64,000 bases of DNA from Plantactinospora soyae (lineage in GTDB: Bacteria > Actinomycetota > Actinomycetes > Mycobacteriales > Micromonosporaceae): contig NZ_JADBEB010000001.1 in NCBI RefSeq assembly GCF_014874095.1, positions 2,046,001 through 2,110,000 on the forward strand. Direction: 5' to 3'. Below the pieces are notes generated by a model. The model saw only the letters and a program-made list of their open reading frames with translations, made no database searches and was not told where the DNA came from. The translations under genes and the position numbers were made by a program. Below, one piece after another: positions 14,185-52,647 of this stretch. Positions within the stretch are counted from its first letter, which is position 1. Each line of letters opens with the position of its first letter.

Positions 14185-15599
14185 CTCTGACCATGCGTTA
14201 TGCGGCGCACAGCGACCGCGGGCTGATCCGAGACGGCAATCAAGACTCCGTCTATGCCGGGCCACGGCTTCTCGCCGTGGCTGATGGCATGGGTGGTATG
14301 GCCGCCGGTGATGTCGCCAGCAACATCGTCATCGGTGCCATGGCCCCGCTCGACGAGGACGTCCCTGGTGACGCCCTTGTCGACGCGTTGCGTTCGGCCG
14401 TGGACACCGCCAACCAGCAGTTGCGCGACACCGTGGACGCCAATCCGCATCTGGAGGGGATGGGCACGACGCTCACCGCTCTGCTGTTCTCGGGCAGCAA
14501 GATCGGCATGGTGCACATCGGTGACTCCCGCGCATACCTGCTCCGAGAGGGCGAATTCGCCCAGGTCACCAAGGACGACACGTACGTCCAGATGCTGGTC
14601 GACGAGGGCCGGATCAGTCTGGAGGAGGCGAGTAGCCACCCCCAGCGGTCCCTACTCACCCGGGCCCTGGACGGTCGCGACATCGACCCCGAATACTCGG
14701 TCCGCCAAGTGCTGCGCGGCGACCGATACCTCATCTGCAGTGACGGGCTCTCCGGAGTCGTCAGCGCGGAGACCATCGGGGACACGCTGCGCAACCACCA
14801 GGATCCCCAGGCGTGCGTCGAGCGGCTGGTGCAGCTCGCGCTGCGCGGCGGTGGTCCCGACAACATCACCGTGATCATCGCGGACGCGACCGACCAGGAC
14901 ATCGTGGAGGCGGCGCCGATCGTCGGTGGCGCGGCGGCCCGGGATCGCGGGATGGCGACCTCGGCCGACGAGTCCACGCCGGCGGCCCGTGCGTCCGCGC
15001 TCTCCCCGCCCCGTCCGGCCAGCCCGGAGTCGACCGAGTCCGACTCGGGAGGCGACGAGGACTCCGAGCGGCCCCGGCGGCGTCCGCTGCGGACCGCGCT
15101 GCTGGTCGTGGTGCTGCTCGGCCTCGTCGGCGGCGGGCTCTGGTTCGGCTGGAGCGTCACCCAGCGGCAGTACTACGTCGGTGCCACCGACGACGGCCAG
15201 TTGGCGGTCTTCCAGGGGGTTCCGGGCCGGATCGCCGGTCTCGACCTGTCGAAGGTGCACGCGACCAGCCCCACCGAGCTGGACGACCTGACCGATGCCG
15301 CCCAGGAGCAGGTCAAGCAGGGCATCCAGGCGGAGGACCAGCCCGACGCCGAACGGCGGCTCGCCGAGCTGACCAACGACGACCCGGGCAACCCCAACCT
15401 GAAGCCGCTCTGTCCGTCGAGCGCGGCGCCGACTGTCACGCCCACGGTGAGCGCCACCACGCCACCGCCGGCCACGCCGGACACCACCCCCGACCCGACC
15501 GTGCGAGCAACCGCCACCCCGGCGGGTACGCCCGACGCGCCACCGTCCGACCCGATCCCGCCGGTCAGCGACCCTGCGGGATGCCGGTCGATCGAGTGA
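14181..15599 (+). CDS. pstP: PstP: PP2C-type Ser/Thr phosphatase
   Basis: 472 residues. A cytoplasmic PP2C domain (about 1-240) with metal-binding motifs DGNQDS, VADGMGGMAAGD, GDSRAYL and the late GGPDNIT; a linker; one transmembrane helix (about 303-323, TALLVVVLLGLVGGGLWFGW); and an extracellular Thr/Pro-rich tail of about 150 residues. It dephosphorylates PknA/PknB and their targets and so resets the operon's kinases. ATGA overlap with fhaB. The extracellular tail is longer than a minimal PstP but usual for actinomycetes. Confidence 0.96.
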   Translation: MTLTMRYAAHSDRGLIRDGNQDSVYAGPRLLAVADGMGGMAAGDVASNIVIGAMAPLDEDVPGDALVDALRSAVDTANQQLRDTVDANPHLEGMGTTLTALLFSGSKIGMVHIGDSRAYLLREGEFAQVTKDDTYVQMLVDEGRISLEEASSHPQRSLLTRALDGRDIDPEYSVRQVLRGDRYLICSDGLSGVVSAETIGDTLRNHQDPQACVERLVQLALRGGGPDNITVIIADATDQDIVEAAPIVGGAAARDRGMATSADESTPAARASALSPPRPASPESTESDSGGDEDSERPRRRPLRTALLVVVLLGLVGGGLWFGWSVTQRQYYVGATDDGQLAVFQGVPGRIAGLDLSKVHATSPTELDDLTDAAQEQVKQGIQAEDQPDAERRLAELTNDDPGNPNLKPLCPSSAAPTVTPTVSATTPPPATPDTTPDPTVRATATPAGTPDAPPSDPIPPVSDPAGCRSIE

Positions 15600-41063: not shown

Positions 41064-41134
41064 GCGGGTGTAGTTCAATGGCAGAACATCAGCTTCCCAA
41101 GCTGACAGTGAGGGTTCGATTCCCTTCACCCGCT
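41064..41134 (+). tRNA. tRNA-Gly (anticodon CCC)
   Basis: 71 nt. Acceptor GCGGGTG pairs with CACCCGC; D loop GTTCAATGGCAGAAC; anticodon stem TCAGC/GCTGA with loop TTCCCAA giving CCC (reads GGG); T arm GAGGG TTCGATT CCCTT. CCA not encoded. Its 3' end (41094-41135) is the att-like sequence repeated at 42539 and 43986. Confidence 0.97.
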
Positions 41135-41140
41135 CAGAGA

Positions 41141-41181
41141 TAAAGGCCCTGGTCGGACGTAGTATCGAACCAGGGCCTTTA
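41141..41181. terminator. Terminator T1 after tRNA-Gly
   Basis: 13-bp stem (TAAAGGCCCTGGT with 41169-41181). The GGCCCTGGTC core recurs in terminators at 42587, 44032 and 45863. It overlaps the end of the integrase relic on the other strand by a few bases. Confidence 0.8.
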
Positions 41182-41757
41182 CTTATGAGCGTCGATTCTT
41201 TCGGGGGCCGTGCCCGTTACGCGCCCGATCACGTTCCCTGGTGATCTGAGCGCGCCAGCGATGCCCTCGTCTTGCGCCTGAGCAGCGTGTTGACAGACAA
41301 GTGCGGCCCGCGTGGAGCCATGACCCATACGGGCCAGCAGGTCGGCGAGACTCGCTCCGGATCGGGAAGCGAGCGTGTTTCCGGTGTGTCGAAGGTCGTG
41401 GAAGTGGAAGCCCGGTAGGCCGACCTCGGTCACAGACCTGGTCCAGTTCGAGGTGCGTTGAAAGTTGGAGCGGCGCAGAGGTGCGCCCTTGGTGCCGGTG
41501 AAGACCAGGGCGTCAAGCTCGTTGGCGACGAAGTCCCGCAGGTGCGTGCGGACGTCGCGGCGGATCGCGTTCGGGATGGTGACCGCGCGGAGTCCGGCGT
41601 CCGACTTGGGCGGGCCGAAGACGAGGCCGCCGTTCTGTCGCTCGACAAGAGTCGCGCGGACCGTGACGGTCCCACAGCGCGGGTCGAGGTCGCGGCGGCG
41701 CAGCGCGGCGAGTTCGGAGCTGGGATCTTCGGAGTAGTTCGGCGCGGTGAGAACTTT
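41179..41757 (-). pseudogene. Tyrosine-recombinase (phage integrase) relic
   Basis: C-terminal catalytic half only, 192 codons open from just after a TAG at 41760-41758. ELAALRRRDLD and VTVRATLVERQNGGLVFGPPKSDAG through HFHDLRHTGNTLASRSGASLADLLARMGHGS are plainly integrase. The first catalytic Arg region is lost (the frame begins NYSEDPSSELAAL). The nucleophile position reads ALVCQHA, where family members have Tyr (a TAT/TAC to TGT change). The protein cannot recombine DNA. It is oriented into the tRNA-Gly att site, as for a tRNA-inserted element. Confidence 0.85.
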
Positions 41758-41978
41758 CTATACGTTGCGGGGGCCATCCCGCCTGCCATCGACCCAGGCA
41801 AGCCGAGCACACCACCGCCCGGCCCACCAGCGTCCGTACGAGCCGTCAAGGCCCGCTTGACATGGCGGGCCGGGCGGCGGCCCGCTCCCCAAGAGGGCGG
41901 CTCGACGGCAGACGGGATGGCATTTCCTTTGGGCTGCGGCGAGAAGTCGGTGTCACACATCAACGTCTGACACCCGAG

Positions 41979-42002
41979 CTGGGTGACCAACTGGGTGACA
42001 AT
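41979..42002. repeat. 12-bp tandem direct repeat
   Basis: CTGGGTGACCAA followed by CTGGGTGACAAT, in the non-coding stretch (41758-42161) 5' of the integrase relic. No gene is visible in that stretch. First of four short tandem repeats in the att region. Confidence 0.6.
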
Positions 42003-42161
42003 GGGCACGAGCAACGCTGGACGTCCATGGACTCCGGTGGACCGTTCGGGCAGCTCAGCCCTGTTGCTGGCACAGCCCACCAACGGCTAGTGGTTCCTTC
42101 ACACCGAAGTGGTCAGTCCCGGCCCGTCGTCTCGGCGTACGTGACGCGCCGGGTCGAGCTC

Positions 42162-42398
42162 CTAACCCCGAGTGTCAATGATCGCCGTCTCGATGCGCAG
42201 CCCGATCCCTGTCAGGACAAGGAGGCCCGCAATGATATGCGTTTCGGCCTGTCCGGAGTTGCTCGCCATGGTGAGCACGGAGGCCAGGAAGCCCCCGGCT
42301 ATTGCCATGGTTCCAAGTACACGCTTGCTGGCAGCTTGCCGAGATCGAAGGTCCACGGCGTGACCGTACCCGGAGACTTCGCGTCGAGACCAGCTCAC
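42162..42398 (-). CDS. Small two-helix membrane protein
   Basis: 78 residues. A short basic N-terminus, two hydrophobic segments (about 28-47, LGTMAIAGGFLASVLTMA, and 54-70, HIIAGLLVLTGIGL), and a short tail. No family recognised. It lies inside the first slot of the tRNA-Gly island, just downstream (in its own sense) of the 11-bp repeats at 42412. It reads as cargo or a leftover of the element. Confidence 0.5.
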   Translation of the reverse strand: MSWSRREVSGYGHAVDLRSRQAASKRVLGTMAIAGGFLASVLTMASNSGQAETHIIAGLLVLTGIGLRIETAIIDTRG

Positions 42399-42411
42399 AC
42401 CGAAGTGGTCG

Positions 42412-42433
42412 GCGTGCCCGATGCGTGCCCGAT
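42412..42433. repeat. 11-bp tandem direct repeat (GCGTGCCCGAT x2)
   Basis: Two exact 11-bp copies, 106 bp before the second att copy. Related to repeats at 42656 and 43879; possible recombinase arm-type sites. Confidence 0.6.
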
Positions 42434-42538
42434 GCAGCGGTCAACACCAGCCAGCACCGGCACCTCTACGGCGTCGACCTGAACGCTCCGTGCCTGTCTG
42501 CTGGCCGGCACAACTACCCAGAGTGCTAATCAACGTGA

Positions 42539-42580
42539 TTCCCAAGCTGACAGTGAGGGTTCGATTCCCCTCACCCGCTC
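42539..42580 (+). repeat. tRNA-Gly 3' end, second copy (att2)
   Basis: 41 of 42 positions equal the 3' end of tRNA-Gly (41094-41135), from the anticodon loop TTCCCAA to CACCCGCTC. Not a full tRNA, because the 5' half is missing. Read as the other att end of an integrated element between here and 41134. Confidence 0.9.
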
Positions 42581-42586
42581 CACACG

Positions 42587-42627
42587 CGGAAGCCCTGGTC
42601 AGGACAGACGTCCCGCCAGGGCTTCCG
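42587..42627. terminator. Terminator T2 after att2
   Basis: 12-bp stem CGGAAGCCCTGG with 42616-42627, seven bases after the att2 copy. Core CCCTGGTCAGGACA is shared with T4 at 45863. Confidence 0.8.
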
Positions 42628-42655
42628 TGGTTCTAGGTCATGCTGAAACAGGGAT

Positions 42656-42682
42656 GGGCCATTAGCGGGCCATTAGCGGGCC
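42656..42682. repeat. 11-bp tandem direct repeat (GGGCCATTAGC x2.5)
   Basis: Two exact copies plus a partial third. Read as GCGGGCCATTA it aligns with GCGTGCCATTA at 43879. Lies just after T2. Confidence 0.65.
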
Positions 42683-42789
42683 TCGGGAGGCCCGCACTCC
42701 CCCGAGCGCCAGGCTGCCACCGCGATCGGGCAAGCCATCCTGGCCCTACACCACATCGAAAACTTGACCTACGGCAGTTGAAGCGCTCA

Positions 42790-43143
42790 CTAGACCGGGA
42801 CGAAGGTGGCGGCCAACACCCGCCAGTTGCCGTCCTCACGCACCCACAGCCGGGTGTAGCGCAACCGCGCGGACATAACGGCACCGCCCTGAACGGCATC
42901 CACCGCAGCGACCGTGCGAGTCATCCCGGTCTCACCGTCTTCCTGGACGTCGAGCGACTCCTCCACCAGGTTAGTGATTCGCAGGGCCCCCGAGCGGTAG
43001 CTCTCCAGGTCATCTTCCTTCGTGAAAACCGTGCCATCCGGTCCAGCACCCACGACCTGGGGGTGCAGAAGCGCGTCGAGGGACTCGACATCGGCGGCGC
43101 GCTGAGCCGCTTGGAGCTGCCGTTCCGCAGTATGGAGATCCAT
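42790..43143 (-). CDS. NTF2-like (SnoaL/DUF4440) domain protein
   Basis: 117 residues. N-terminal helix AERQLQAAQRAADVESLDALLHPQVV, then a curved sheet: VTAVDAVQGGAVMSARLRYTRLWVREDGNWRVLAATFV. This is the NTF2 cone fold seen in DUF4440/SnoaL-like proteins. Catalytic residues cannot be assigned. Sits in the second slot of the tRNA-Gly island. Confidence 0.8.
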   Translation of the reverse strand: MDLHTAERQLQAAQRAADVESLDALLHPQVVGAGPDGTVFTKEDDLESYRSGALRITNLVEESLDVQEDGETGMTRTVAAVDAVQGGAVMSARLRYTRLWVREDGNWRVLAATFVPV

Positions 43144-43412
43144 TCACCGATCCTCCACAGCGCCCCGCAACAAGACAAGCGGGTTCGCTCGCGGCAGAAC
43201 GGCAATGTCAGCCCAGTACGGCGTTCGCGGCACAACCGAACTTCGGCATGACCGGGTCGGCCACCTGAGAGGGTCCTCTACCTCGCTCCGAAACGGGGAA
43301 CCATCCGTGCTGAGCGAACCAGTTGGACAGTGCTCAGTGGGGCGCGCGGAAGATCGCGTGCGGCAACTGCCGCCGGGCAGCCGCAGCCGCACCCGCACCG
43401 GACATACTGGCC

Positions 43413-43784
43413 ATGCCTGGAACGAGGACGGTGGCGGTGGCTGAGACAGAGCTCAACATGGCTGTTGCGCGAATCCAAAGCAGCGGTGGCTACCGCAACT
43501 TGGTCCGGGGGTACCGCTGCCTAGCCGTCGGGCTGGTCTTCGGCCTGTTGGTCCTTGTGTCGGCGCTCGTTCGCTTCCTGCCGTTGACGATTGCGTTGTT
43601 CGCTGTCGCGGCCGTGGCGATGGCTGCCGGTGTGGCGCTCTGCTGGACAGGGATGATCAGGATGTCGCGAGACCAGTTGATGCCACGTGGCGGAACAAAT
43701 CGACATCAGGCCTTGATGCGAGGGCTGTGGCGGGACGTGATCAAGCCAGCACAGCGTGCTGACATAGTCGATAGCCGACGGTAG
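43413..43784 (+). CDS. Two-helix membrane protein, unknown function
   Basis: About 123 residues from ATG 43413 (MPGTRTVAVAETELNMAVARIQ). Two adjacent transmembrane helices (about 37-57 and 61-82) and a basic C-terminus (RDQLMPRGGTNRHQALMRGLWRDVIKP). The frame is open further upstream to 43323, but that part looks non-coding. Second slot of the island, with lower GC than flanking core genes. Confidence 0.55.
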   Translation: MPGTRTVAVAETELNMAVARIQSSGGYRNLVRGYRCLAVGLVFGLLVLVSALVRFLPLTIALFAVAAVAMAAGVALCWTGMIRMSRDQLMPRGGTNRHQALMRGLWRDVIKPAQRADIVDSRR

Positions 43785-43878
43785 CCGTGATCGCAGTGCG
43801 CGGCGAGGGAGAAGGCCAGGGCTGGCTTCGCAAGGACGCTGGGCGGCACGTGATCGATCTGGCCAGGCATCCCAACGG

Positions 43879-43900
43879 AGCGTGCCATTAGCGTGCCATT
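43879..43900. repeat. 11-bp tandem direct repeat (AGCGTGCCATT x2)
   Basis: Two exact copies 86 bp before the third att-like copy. Same consensus (GCGTGCCATTA) as the repeats at 42412 and 42656. Confidence 0.65.
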
Positions 43901-43985
43901 GAGCCAGGGCAACAGAGGCCAACGCAGGCCGCTGGAGGCCGCCGTGATCAGGGTGCCGGCTGGTCGGAGGCCCGATCTTCGACAC

Positions 43986-44028
43986 TTCTCAAGCTGACGA
44001 TGAGGGTTCGATTCCGTTCACCCCGCTC
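43986..44028 (+). repeat. tRNA-Gly 3' end, third copy (att3)
   Basis: Four substitutions and one inserted C against 41094-41135; the AAGCTGAC and TGAGGGTTCGATTCC blocks are intact. Older or more diverged than att2. Confidence 0.85.
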
Positions 44029-44031
44029 GGA

Positions 44032-44078
44032 CAATGAAGGCCCAGGTCGGAGGAGCATTTCTGACGCTGGCCTTCGTT
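44032..44078. terminator. Terminator T3 after att3
   Basis: Imperfect stem GAAGGCC-C-AG with CTGGCCTTC, then CGTTCT. Its GGCCCAGGTCGG matches T1's GGCCCTGGTCGG at 11 of 12 bases. Confidence 0.65.
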
Positions 44079-44322
44079 CTTTCTGATCTCTGTCCGGAGG
44101 TCGTCCCCCTTCGTGCCCCTCCAGTCTGGCGTGCTGGCTGCGTCCGTCTCCGCCGATCATGGGCGTCACAACTTGCTCACCTACGACGGCTGCCAGCCCC
44201 GCTGAGGCTGTCGACTTCCCGCGCCGTAGCCGCGCGGATATTTCGCCGATCCGGTGCAACCGTGGCGTCGCTCTGCTGCGTGAGTGGGAGGAGCAGCAGG
44301 CACCGAGGAGAGTGAGGTCGGC

Positions 44323-44922
44323 GTGACAGAGGACGACTACCGGGCGTTCTACGCATCGTCGTTCGCGCGGTTGGTCGGTCAGGTGTACCTGCTGACCGGC
44401 GACTTTGCTGAGGCGCAGGACTCCGTTCAAGAAGCGTTTGTCCGAGCTTGGAGCAGACGTCGCCGGTTCGTCGACGGGGACGAGCCGGAGGCGTGGATCA
44501 GAACGGTCGCCCGCCGGGTCGCGGTCAGCCGTTGGCGCTCGGCGCGGTCCGGGTTGGCGGCGTGGCGGCGCCGTGGGGTGGTTCCACACGTGCCTGGGCC
44601 TGGCGTGGAGACGCCGTTGATCGTGGCGGCCCTACAACGTCTGTCCGAGGAGCAGCGACGCGCAATCGTGCTGCACCACCTGTGCGATCGGTCTGTCGAG
44701 CAGGTCGCCGCCGAGACGGGGGTGCCATCCGGGACGGTCAAGGCCCGGTTGTCGCGCGGGCGGACCGCTCTGCGACAGATTCTCGAAGAGGCGGACGTTT
44801 CGCATCCGGGGAGCCGGCAGGAGTTCGGCTCCACACCTCCCTCGGGCGAGCCGCCGGCTGGCACGCCGCGCCGGTCCGACCGACAGAACGACAGCACAAC
44901 CTTGGAGCGTCGTCATGCCTGA
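44323..44922 (+). CDS. ECF RNA polymerase sigma factor
   Basis: About 199 residues. Sigma-70 region 2 (about 6-70) with FARLVGQVYLLTGDFAEAQDSVQEAFVRAW and a region-2.4-like WIRTVARRVAVSRWRS; region 4 (about 95-150) with LSEEQRRAIVLHHLCDRSVEQVAAETGVPSGTVKARLSRGRTAL. The Ser/Gly/Pro-rich tail (about 160-199) is unusual. GTG 44323 chosen because upstream codons are not conserved-looking. Overlaps the next gene by 8 nt, as for sigma/anti-sigma pairs. Third slot of the island. Confidence 0.92.
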   Translation: MTEDDYRAFYASSFARLVGQVYLLTGDFAEAQDSVQEAFVRAWSRRRRFVDGDEPEAWIRTVARRVAVSRWRSARSGLAAWRRRGVVPHVPGPGVETPLIVAALQRLSEEQRRAIVLHHLCDRSVEQVAAETGVPSGTVKARLSRGRTALRQILEEADVSHPGSRQEFGSTPPSGEPPAGTPRRSDRQNDSTTLERRHA

Positions 44923-45826
44923 ACGCCAGTACTCTGACCGAGAGAGCCGCGACCTCGAAAGCCCCGCGCCAGATACGCCTGTCCTGGAGAGCCCGCTGCC
45001 CGGCCTGGACACCATGCTCCGGGACGCGGCTGACGACGCGACGCGCCGGACGTTCGTGCCGCCGTACGACCTGGTCGAGGGTCTGGTGCGGCGGCGCCGA
45101 ACCGCGCGGGTCGCGACGGCCGGCGTGTTCGGGGTAGTGCTTTTTCTGGCGTTCGGGGTCGCGGCCGTCAGCGGTGGCGGGCCTGACCGGGACGGGGGCC
45201 GCCCGCAGCCGGCCGCGTCGGCCACCGCCCTGGACCCTTCGTTGCGCGAGTACTGGACCCAGATTCCCATCTTGAGCTGGACGCCGGGCGCGGGACGCCG
45301 GGCGCGGGACGTGAGTTCCACGAGCGAGTTCCGTACGGCGGTGTTCTCCGCGCTTGGCCCGGGGGATCATGACTACTCCCAGCTCCACGATTTGCGAAAG
45401 AGCTTTCCCGACGCTCCGGTCGGTGGCCCGGCCATCGCCATCGATCAGTCGGTCACGAGAGCGGAGTTGGAGCACGCCGCCGCGAACCTGCGCAAGCTCG
45501 CCGGCGTGCAGGACGCGCGGGTCGTCGAGGTACCCGGCCTCTGGTTCACCGTATCGGCCACCGGCCCCGCCGCCTCCGGCACCAGCAGGGCACCAGTCAT
45601 TGACCTCGAGGGGATAGCCATCAGAGGCTCCGCCAGCGGGCGGGAACGTGACGCACAGAATCGGTGGGTTAGCTGGGTACGCGCCACGTACGCCGGGCCG
45701 GCCATCGACCGCGCCACCTTCGACCTGCTGCGCGCACGGGCCGCCGAAGCAGTGGAGATCGATGTCTCGCAGGTAGTGGTCACCGCAGAATCCTCCGGCA
45801 GGAACCCGGAGCCGACGACGAGCTGA
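44915..45826 (+). CDS. Putative anti-sigma factor, single-pass membrane protein
   Basis: 303 residues. A cytoplasmic N-terminus (about 1-68) ending YDLVEGLVRRRRTARVA, one transmembrane helix (about 69-88, GVFGVVLFLAFGVAAVSG), and an external domain (about 95-300) without a recognised family. Starts within the end of the sigma gene. The topology suits a membrane anti-sigma, but no zinc-finger HxxxCxxC is present, so the role is inferred from position. Confidence 0.7.
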   Translation: MPERQYSDRESRDLESPAPDTPVLESPLPGLDTMLRDAADDATRRTFVPPYDLVEGLVRRRRTARVATAGVFGVVLFLAFGVAAVSGGGPDRDGGRPQPAASATALDPSLREYWTQIPILSWTPGAGRRARDVSSTSEFRTAVFSALGPGDHDYSQLHDLRKSFPDAPVGGPAIAIDQSVTRAELEHAAANLRKLAGVQDARVVEVPGLWFTVSATGPAASGTSRAPVIDLEGIAIRGSASGRERDAQNRWVSWVRATYAGPAIDRATFDLLRARAAEAVEIDVSQVVVTAESSGRNPEPTTS

Positions 45827-45842
45827 CGCCGGACTCAGCCAG

Positions 45843-45853
45843 TTCCCTTCACC
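45843..45853 (+). repeat. Remnant of tRNA-Gly 3' end (att4?)
   Basis: TTCCCTTCACC equals the T-arm/acceptor part of tRNA-Gly (41120-41130). Only 11 bases remain, but it is followed, as at the other copies, by a GGCCCTGGTC terminator. By itself the match would be weak. Confidence 0.4.
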
Positions 45854-45862
45854 GGGACAGAT

Positions 45863-45907
45863 TCGGAGGCCCTGGTCAGGACAATCAGTCCGGACCAGGG
45901 CCTCCGA
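45863..45907. terminator. Terminator T4 after sigma/anti-sigma pair
   Basis: Perfect 15-bp stem TCGGAGGCCCTGGTC with 45893-45907 and a 15-base loop. The CCCTGGTCAGGACA core equals T2. Confidence 0.9.
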
Positions 45908-45994
45908 TCTTCCGTTGGCCGCGATCGGTGTACCAGCCATCCGCGGGCCAATGCTCGGCGCCGAGCATACGGTGGACTGTCGCGCTGCTTGACT

Positions 45995-51891: not shown

Positions 51892-52647
51892 TCAGCGGTT
51901 CCAGTCCTGCTTGGCGGCGCGGACCAGTTTGTCCTTCAGCTCGCGGGTGTGCCGCCGGCTGACCGGCAGCTCGGTCTCGTCGACCACGACCACGTAGCCC
52001 GAGTTGGCCAACCGCAGTTCGGCGATCAGCCGGAGTTGGACCAGATACGACCGGTGGATCCGGACGAATCCCGCATCGGCCCAGCGTTCGGCGAGGGTGG
52101 CCAGCGGCACCCGGACCAGGTGCGAGCCGTCGGAGGTGTGCAGCCGGGCGTAGTCGCCCTGCGCCTCCACCCAGCGTACGGCCGAGCGGGGCAGCATCCG
52201 GGTGGTGCCGGCCAGCTCCACCGGGATCGTCGGATCGGGCTCGGCCCGCGCCATCGCCGCCGGATGTGTCGGCACCACCCGTGCGCCGACCACCCGGCGT
52301 AGCGACTCGGCGAGCCGTTCGGCCCGGACCGGCTTGCGTACGTAGTCGGTGGCGCCGAGGTCGAAGGCGTCGACGGCGCCGTCGTCGTACGCGGTGACGA
52401 AGACGATCGCCGGTGGCCGGGCGAACCGCCGCAGCACCCGGGCCAGTTCCATGCCGTCGAGGCCGGGCATCCGGATGTCGAGGAAGACCACGTCGACGTC
52501 GGCGTCGCGGAGCACCCGCAGCGCCTCGGTCGCGTCGCCGGCCGTGTGCAGCCGGGCCACCCGGGGGTCGGCCCGCAGGTGGTACGCGAGTTCGTCGAGT
52601 GCCGGAGGCTCGTCGTCGACCGCCAGGACCCGCAGGAAACCGCTCAC
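51892..52647 (-). CDS. LytTR-family response regulator
   Basis: 251 residues. Receiver domain (about 5-120): VDDEPPALDEL, phospho-Asp in VVFLDIRMPGLDG, Lys in VRKPVRAERL. C-terminal LytTR DNA-binding domain (about 145-248): WVEAQGDYARLHTSDGSHLVRVPLATL and FVRIHRSYLVQL. GTG start. Forms an operon with the LytS-type kinase upstream. Targets in related systems include wall or carbon-starvation genes; unknown here. Confidence 0.94.
   Translation of the reverse strand: MSGFLRVLAVDDEPPALDELAYHLRADPRVARLHTAGDATEALRVLRDADVDVVFLDIRMPGLDGMELARVLRRFARPPAIVFVTAYDDGAVDAFDLGATDYVRKPVRAERLAESLRRVVGARVVPTHPAAMARAEPDPTIPVELAGTTRMLPRSAVRWVEAQGDYARLHTSDGSHLVRVPLATLAERWADAGFVRIHRSYLVQLRLIAELRLANSGYVVVVDETELPVSRRHTRELKDKLVRAAKQDWNR

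Follow-up and report, generated by a model that had tools for sequence, protein, structure and literature searches.

A probable stack of decayed AICE-type elements at the tRNA-Gly(CCC) gene of Plantactinospora soyae, with a terminator-like hairpin after each core copy

Actinomycete integrative and conjugative elements (AICEs) such as pSAM2 and pACPL place a tyrosine integrase gene by the 3' half of a tRNA gene, with 42-43 nt of identity, and arm-type repeats have been described around their core (parts of PMC3364876). Pairs of AICEs may lie in tandem in one tRNA gene, as reported in sections of PMC3218068 for Fean5518/Fean5534 of Frankia and Sav3708/Sav3728 of Streptomyces avermitilis, with related or different integrases. 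Cis-mobilizable elements (CIMEs) are without integration and transfer genes, keep both attachment (att) sites and become stacked by later integration (passages of PMC5704250). Deep stacks resembling the present one are formed by the ssrA islands of Dehalococcoides, many of which lie in tandem downstream of one RNA gene, with copies of the 3' end of that gene as their boundaries (sections of PMC3146451). The DNA analyzed here, hereafter the window, is a 64-kb stretch of the single 9.7-Mb contig that makes up the genome of Plantactinospora soyae. It contains a tRNA-Gly gene with anticodon CCC (41064-41135, forward strand, identified by ARAGORN), downstream of which the 3' end of the tRNA recurs. 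We consider it very probable that this region arose by tandem accretion of decayed AICE-type, pSAM2-like elements at the tRNA-Gly(CCC) 3' half.

The locus shares with pSAM2 and pACPL the tyrosine integrase by the tRNA 3' half, the length of the identity, the arm-type repeats and, in relatives, genes for RepSA and FtsK-like proteins. In contrast, the slots of the window, that is, the segments between successive copies, hold no replication or transfer genes, and a hairpin stands between core and arm repeats, a feature that the relevant parts of PMC3364876 do not mention for the two described elements. Compared with the tandem AICEs of Frankia and S. avermitilis, the stacks described here reach up to four slots, mostly decayed, and extend over many genera of one bacterial family. 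It differs from CIMEs, and from the accretion of integrative and conjugative or mobilizable elements (ICE/IME), in being actinobacterial, in its tRNA-Gly target and in the terminator within its module. The Dehalococcoides islands, unlike the window, rely on a serine recombinase, a tmRNA (transfer-messenger RNA) target and a 20-bp repeat, and the word terminator is absent from the main text of PMC3146451. The open-access literature searched yielded no description of AICEs at tRNA-Gly, nor of a terminator as a constant, or travelling, part of an attachment module. Older work on tRNA attachment sites may mention terminators. Tandem AICEs, accretion and deep stacks at RNA genes are already in print, and the travelling stop signal appears to be the less usual part.

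According to the proposed mechanism, the right end of each element would have a fixed order, namely a 42-bp core, a terminator hairpin belonging to the element, 11-bp arm repeats in a tandem pair and the end of the integrase gene. Upon integration, the 3' half and terminator of the tRNA would be swapped for those of the element, and the previous pair would move to the far end. Repeated integration would generate nested copies, as a rule with the newest adjoining the tRNA, and later deletion of integrase, replication and transfer genes would leave short slots. Cores, hairpins, arm-like repeats and an integrase relic are present in the window, and integrase-bearing elements as well as occupied and copy-free sister genomes are present among its relatives.

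The core currently in use spans the 42 nt from the anticodon loop to the 3' end of tRNA-Gly (41094-41135, repeat family D1), and all features of the four junctions read on the forward strand. It is followed by terminator-like hairpin 1 (41137-41184; fold of 41136-41200, -27.3 kcal/mol; profile match), which would mark the right end of the tRNA-nearest element. Core copy 2 (42539-42580) retains 41/42 positions and precedes hairpin 2 (42582-42631; fold of 42581-42645, -37.6 kcal/mol), which together with its flank is 95-96% identical to the downstream flank of tRNA-Gly in the relatives G116 and G007. Core copy 3 (43986-44028) is degraded, with 34/42 identities ungapped and one inserted C, and is followed by hairpin 3, of B type (44029-44081; fold of 44029-44093, -26.2 kcal/mol), which exhibits 84% identity over 108 bp to the right end in the congener G001. 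Only two blocks are left of core copy 4 (45821-45853), AGCTGAC at 45821-45827 and an 11-base remnant at 45843-45853, from which GCCCTGGTC follows 15 bases on, with the same spacing as in copy 1. Hairpin 4, of A type, corresponds to inverted repeat I8 (45863-45907; fold of 45855-45925, -48.0 kcal/mol).

A preliminary description of this stretch had already pointed out copies 2 and 3 and the 11-base remnant. When the window is searched with a profile derived from 153 junctions at 106 other loci, all four junctions are recovered (E = 2.6e-24, 1.9e-23, 1e-15 and 4e-7), which bears out these assignments. Of the five other rows returned by the profile, four correspond to these hairpins read from the opposite strand (E 0.0015 to 0.26), and the fifth is a stray match at 14345 (E 5.8). 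The hairpin said to follow each copy is indeed there, but the exact string thought to be common to all, GGCCCTGGTC with its paired arm, occurs in hairpins 1 and 4 only, its place being taken by AAGCCCTGGTC in hairpin 2 and by GGCCCAGGTC in hairpin 3. Copies at unrelated loci, named beforehand as evidence against integration at this site, were not found: in its own genome the 42-nt copy was found only downstream of tRNA-Gly(CCC). No 42-mer of at least 31/42 was found on the reverse strand, or matching the reversed core, in 2.1 Mb from 107 loci. The possibility that the GGCCCTGGTC-type hairpin is the general tRNA terminator of this genome was rejected, GCC[CT][TA]GG being found within the first 32 nt after the match at only 3 of 30 tRNA loci (this tRNA, tRNA-Gly(TCC) and tRNA-Ala(GGC)), in a rough count for which 30 loci were fetched from 65 tRNAs found and minus-strand loci were possibly read on the wrong side.

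The six congeners place the stack within a variable region. Upstream of the tRNA, all six carry an M43 peptidase gene and a gene labelled pyridoxamine-oxidase-like in this analysis, and five of the six carry dcd (in two pieces in G004); downstream, the window gene 51892-52647 recurs in four, the fetched stretches of G001 and G004 not containing it. Between these conserved genes, one to three distal core copies are present in five of the six congeners and an integrase adjoins the tRNA in five, G005 having neither. The first slot of G002, G003, G004 and G006 measures 14-18 kb and has a minus-strand integrase gene directly after the hairpin. Pfam analysis of the G003 element, the only congener element scanned, reports an integrase (E 3e-14), RepSA (E 4e-101), DUF2637, FtsK_SpoIIIE and GntR-UTRA, and judging by these hits it is an AICE gene set lying between two cores at tRNA-Gly(CCC). 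Integrase-bearing congener elements, arm-like repeats at fixed distances and stacks that differ between relatives argue for serial integration at one tRNA, as the preliminary description had proposed.

The survey was extended to 200 genomes of the family Micromonosporaceae, including that of the window and the six congeners, of which 199 matched. The 107 loci read comprise the first 100 of the 192 other matching genomes listed and the seven Plantactinospora loci, and a distal copy was counted at 31/42 or better within the stretch read (mostly 20 kb). Distal copies occur at 35 of the 107 loci (29/100 outside the genus), amounting to 49 copies in 12 of 27 genera, with two or more at 11 loci. An integrase match (>45 bits) adjoins the tRNA at many loci with distal copies and also at several without, so elements whose copy is lost or more distant were likely missed.

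The anatomy of the attachment module is best seen in the 17 long slots (>4 kb). Core identity reaches 41-42/42 in 16 of them and 38/42 in the remaining one. Upstream, identity stops exactly at the core start in 15 of the 17; downstream, it stops 0-5 nt past the tRNA, again in 15, and continues for 15 and 17 nt in G006 and G039. That identity stops near the tRNA 3' end indicates a core of 42 bp with the terminator outside it. Across the survey, a hairpin stem of at least 11 bp follows 88/107 tRNAs and 32/49 distal copies, as compared with 103/1060 random stretches. Beyond the hairpin, a tandem pair of 11-bp repeats is found at the right end, ~115 and 126 bp from the core start, and a corresponding pair lies ~95-105 bp before the distal core at the left end (somewhat further for the gamma type). 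These repeats, which may be the arm sites bound by the integrase, fall into three types, alpha, beta and gamma, the alpha motif CGKGCCATTA having 49 occurrences in 40.8 kb near cores, compared with 8 in 2.0 Mb of other sequence. In 25 of 48 slots a type could be assigned at each end (chance calls, 6/2120 random stretches), and the two types agree in all 25 (alpha in 19, gamma in 4 and beta in 2; permutation p 5e-5). This agreement is not blind, since the window and 12 other loci had been viewed before the patterns were drawn up. Across a core, between neighbouring slots, the type agrees in 9 of 13 cases. Switching of the T-stem pair 50:64 by incoming elements was also considered and rejected, 46 of the 49 distal copies carrying the allele of the tRNA. 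The only coherent differing case is G072 (L207), with C-G in the tRNA and A-U in a degraded distal copy; it looks as if an element had changed the T stem of the tRNA, which is a hint at most.

Relatives also bear on whose terminator is whose. Among members of genera g7 and g30 that lack a distal copy (e.g. G052, G119 and G166), the tRNA is followed by a host-type hairpin and then by a palindrome, with no 11-bp tandem. In G071, G087, G189 and G199, the hairpin after the tRNA is of element type and the one after the distal copy of host type, and G183 fits the same order with a decayed host-type end. A host hairpin at the far end would be expected if the integrating element brings its own terminator. 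The two terminators of a single element usually differ. Over 48 slots, the hairpin region tracks the far end of the same slot between genera (Mantel r 0.12, p 0.026), while the comparison with the DNA before the same copy gives r 0.00 (p 0.53). The element's own terminator would sit between the core and the right arm repeats, and that of the host would end up at the far end, an arrangement that is clear in four genomes, whereas four others do not fit. As a separate observation, the hairpin after tRNA-Gly in Salinispora fenicalii (L055) looks hybrid, its left half being that of other Salinispora and its right half and flank that of Plantactinospora G002.

The slots of the window measure 1.4-1.8 kb. 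Slot 1 has tandem 11-bp arm-like repeats of gamma type at its right end (41209-41230, forward strand), followed by the C-terminal part of a tyrosine integrase relic with a broken frame (41248-41715, reverse strand), for which tblastn reports 53% identity to residues 205-358 of the G006 integrase and Pfam a sub-cut-off Phage_integrase hit (E 0.0038). Gamma-type repeats recur at its left end (42413-42434, forward strand). Over 532 bp, the right part of this slot is 75% identical to G030, where the match to the integrase covers almost its full length, and the two slot ends resemble the first slot of G146. Slot 2 is bounded by alpha-type repeats (42656-42682 at the right end and 43881-43900 at the left, both forward strand) and encodes a DUF4440 (SnoaL/NTF2-like) protein of 117 residues (42790-43143, reverse strand; Pfam E 2.7e-26) and a small membrane-protein-like open reading frame (ORF; 43323-43784, forward strand; PF07332, actinobacterial holin, E 1e-4, below cut-off), the actual start of which may lie further in. 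Over the first 106 bp, slot 2 shows 96% and 95% identity to G116 and G007, from two other genera, and over the last 105 bp it shows 86% identity to the 18-kb slot of G002; it may be a mosaic or a fusion. Slot 3, all of whose features are on the forward strand, starts with degraded beta-type repeats (44102-44122) and encodes an ECF (extracytoplasmic function)-type sigma factor (44323-44922; Pfam Sigma70_r4_2 and r2, scanned from 44284). The overlapping gene at 44915-45826, whose stop codon lies inside the core remnant, is probably that of the anti-sigma factor, an assignment based only on where it lies and on a hydrophobic stretch; it matches no Pfam family. After hairpin 4, degraded alpha-type repeats (45934-45954, forward strand; 16/21) are probably the trace of a fourth element's right end. 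By these repeats, the window retains right ends from at least four elements, with three arm types represented, and the earlier view that multiple elements had accreted holds, its count of three being too low.

None of the slots contains an intact integrase, slots 2 and 3 returning no match at all, and no integrase-bearing neighbour element was found within the stack of the window. The slot ORFs scanned include neither RepSA-type replication nor FtsK-like transfer genes, nor toxin-antitoxin families, belonging to other families or giving no match. Slots 1 and 2 thereby resemble CIMEs: they are without complete integration or transfer genes, and each of their ends retains a core and arm repeats of matching type, as CIMEs keep both att sites, while the degradation of copy 3 makes its function doubtful. 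Of slot 3, the far core is reduced to two short blocks and no left arm repeats were recognised. In the stretches read at the 106 other loci, neither the two slot-2 genes nor the probable anti-sigma gene has a tblastn match (E 1e-3), so the same genes standing without tRNA copies, the other finding that the preliminary description held to be adverse, were not encountered for these three; the slot 3 sigma factor has matches there of only 29-45% identity. Past the stack, between 46015 and 49075, lie genes for a GntR regulator and a membrane protein, then a second sigma gene and its neighbour, which may be older island content, and then the next conserved genes. Two side observations concern congeners. 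In G004 (L041), dcd matches in two parts separated by ~1 kb, in a single open frame that has 538 codons instead of 192, a pattern such as an intein would give. In G006, the distance between the same two copies is 2.8 kb on contigs C7 and C8 (L047 and L046) and 1.5 kb on C1, with a DDE transposase gene inside the slot on C8; these contig differences represent assembly variants or a mixed culture.

Several observations weigh against serial integration of elements that bring their own terminator. In the window, the left end of slot 3 is not recognisable. In G049, G084, G100 and G104, a host-type hairpin adjoins the tRNA though copies lie beyond. The slot-wise correlation of the hairpins is in the predicted direction and weak, and the two hairpins of a slot correlate to a like extent (r 0.14, p 0.10; 48 slots). 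G052, the g7 reference, has an integrase-like fragment 1.5 kb downstream, yet no copy or arm repeats, and the non-blind arm typing belongs here as well. If the terminator lay within the copied core, as the preliminary description had suggested, each integration would duplicate tRNA end and terminator together, which would suit the similar hairpins at all four window junctions, the identity running on past the tRNA in G006 and G039, and the two hairpin regions of G180, identical at 52/60 positions. The end points of identity in the other 15 long slots, together with hairpin pairs that are wholly different (e.g. in G071 and G087), led us to reject this explanation, which we regard as very improbable. 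Less credible still is a local duplication of tRNA end and terminator without any mobile element: every copy does lie downstream of one tRNA and in a single orientation, but in relatives the DNA between copies contains integrase genes and a complete AICE gene set, arm-like repeats stand at fixed distances, and near-identical slot ends recur in other genera.

A further explanation retains the elements but would have short slots excised and inserted in trans by AICE integrases, as integrase-less cassettes and not only as leftovers of decay in place. Window slots 1 and 2 and several short slots elsewhere, in which both ends retain a core and arm repeats of matching type, would suit it, as would the cargo of the 31 short slots (0.5-3.7 kb; part of their ORFs scanned), 13 of which hold toxin-antitoxin-like genes: nine by Pfam at cut-off, one by a sub-cut-off AbiEii hit and three by DNA similarity, one of them partly. 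The nine Pfam-supported slots, next to tRNA-Gly at L135, L137, L148, L152, L153, L154, L199, L224 and L226, contain Gp49 with HTH (helix-turn-helix), AbiEii, PIN, SocA, and PIN with Phd, one PIN standing alone; five are outside genus g44, the g44 slots being mutually related. Toxin-antitoxin-like matches were returned by 14/37 slot ORFs scanned vs 0/19 similar-sized control ORFs beyond the stacks (ten genomes), and seven of the 14 are toxins or toxin-like at cut-off or above, the others being HTH, antitoxin or weaker matches. The genomes of g44 hold differing subsets, one slot in G107 and G084 and two in G049, G068 and G115; the preliminary description had proposed a search for single-slot strains, and single- and multi-slot genomes do exist here, albeit in another genus and other species. 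G107 (as its slot 1) and G049 (as its slot 2) share a short slot with 87% similarity over 920 bp, the genes of which are also present in further genera, with 73-75% identity at the DNA level. However, G049 and G107 are of the same genus, and G049 fits G107 with one later insertion; the ends of the shared slot differ outside that genus; and integrase remnants persist in several short slots, as decay in place predicts. Capture in trans is, on balance, unlikely. Slightly more doubtful is the wider proposal that tRNA-Gly(CCC) of the Micromonosporaceae is a cassette platform with a portable module of core, terminator and arm repeats, where integrase-less cassettes of ~1 kb would be captured and stacked in trans by AICE integrases, the tRNA 3' half and terminator being exchanged at each capture. 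If true, the cassettes would often be loss-resisting toxin-antitoxin pairs, and the platform would be a tRNA-based counterpart of the sedentary integron.

For serial integration of AICE-type elements followed by decay, the successive events would presumably have taken place in the order implied by the nesting of the copies, and the hairpins are taken to terminate transcription. An element that enters the 3' half of a tRNA gene separates the tRNA from its terminator, and the elements at this locus appear to bring a replacement. Every integration would then renew the terminator of the tRNA, leaving in the stack a record of past ones. If the terminator travels, both the 3' ends of the tRNA and the read-through into the element should be measurably affected. 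The short toxin-antitoxin-like slots of relatives bear on why relic islands persist.

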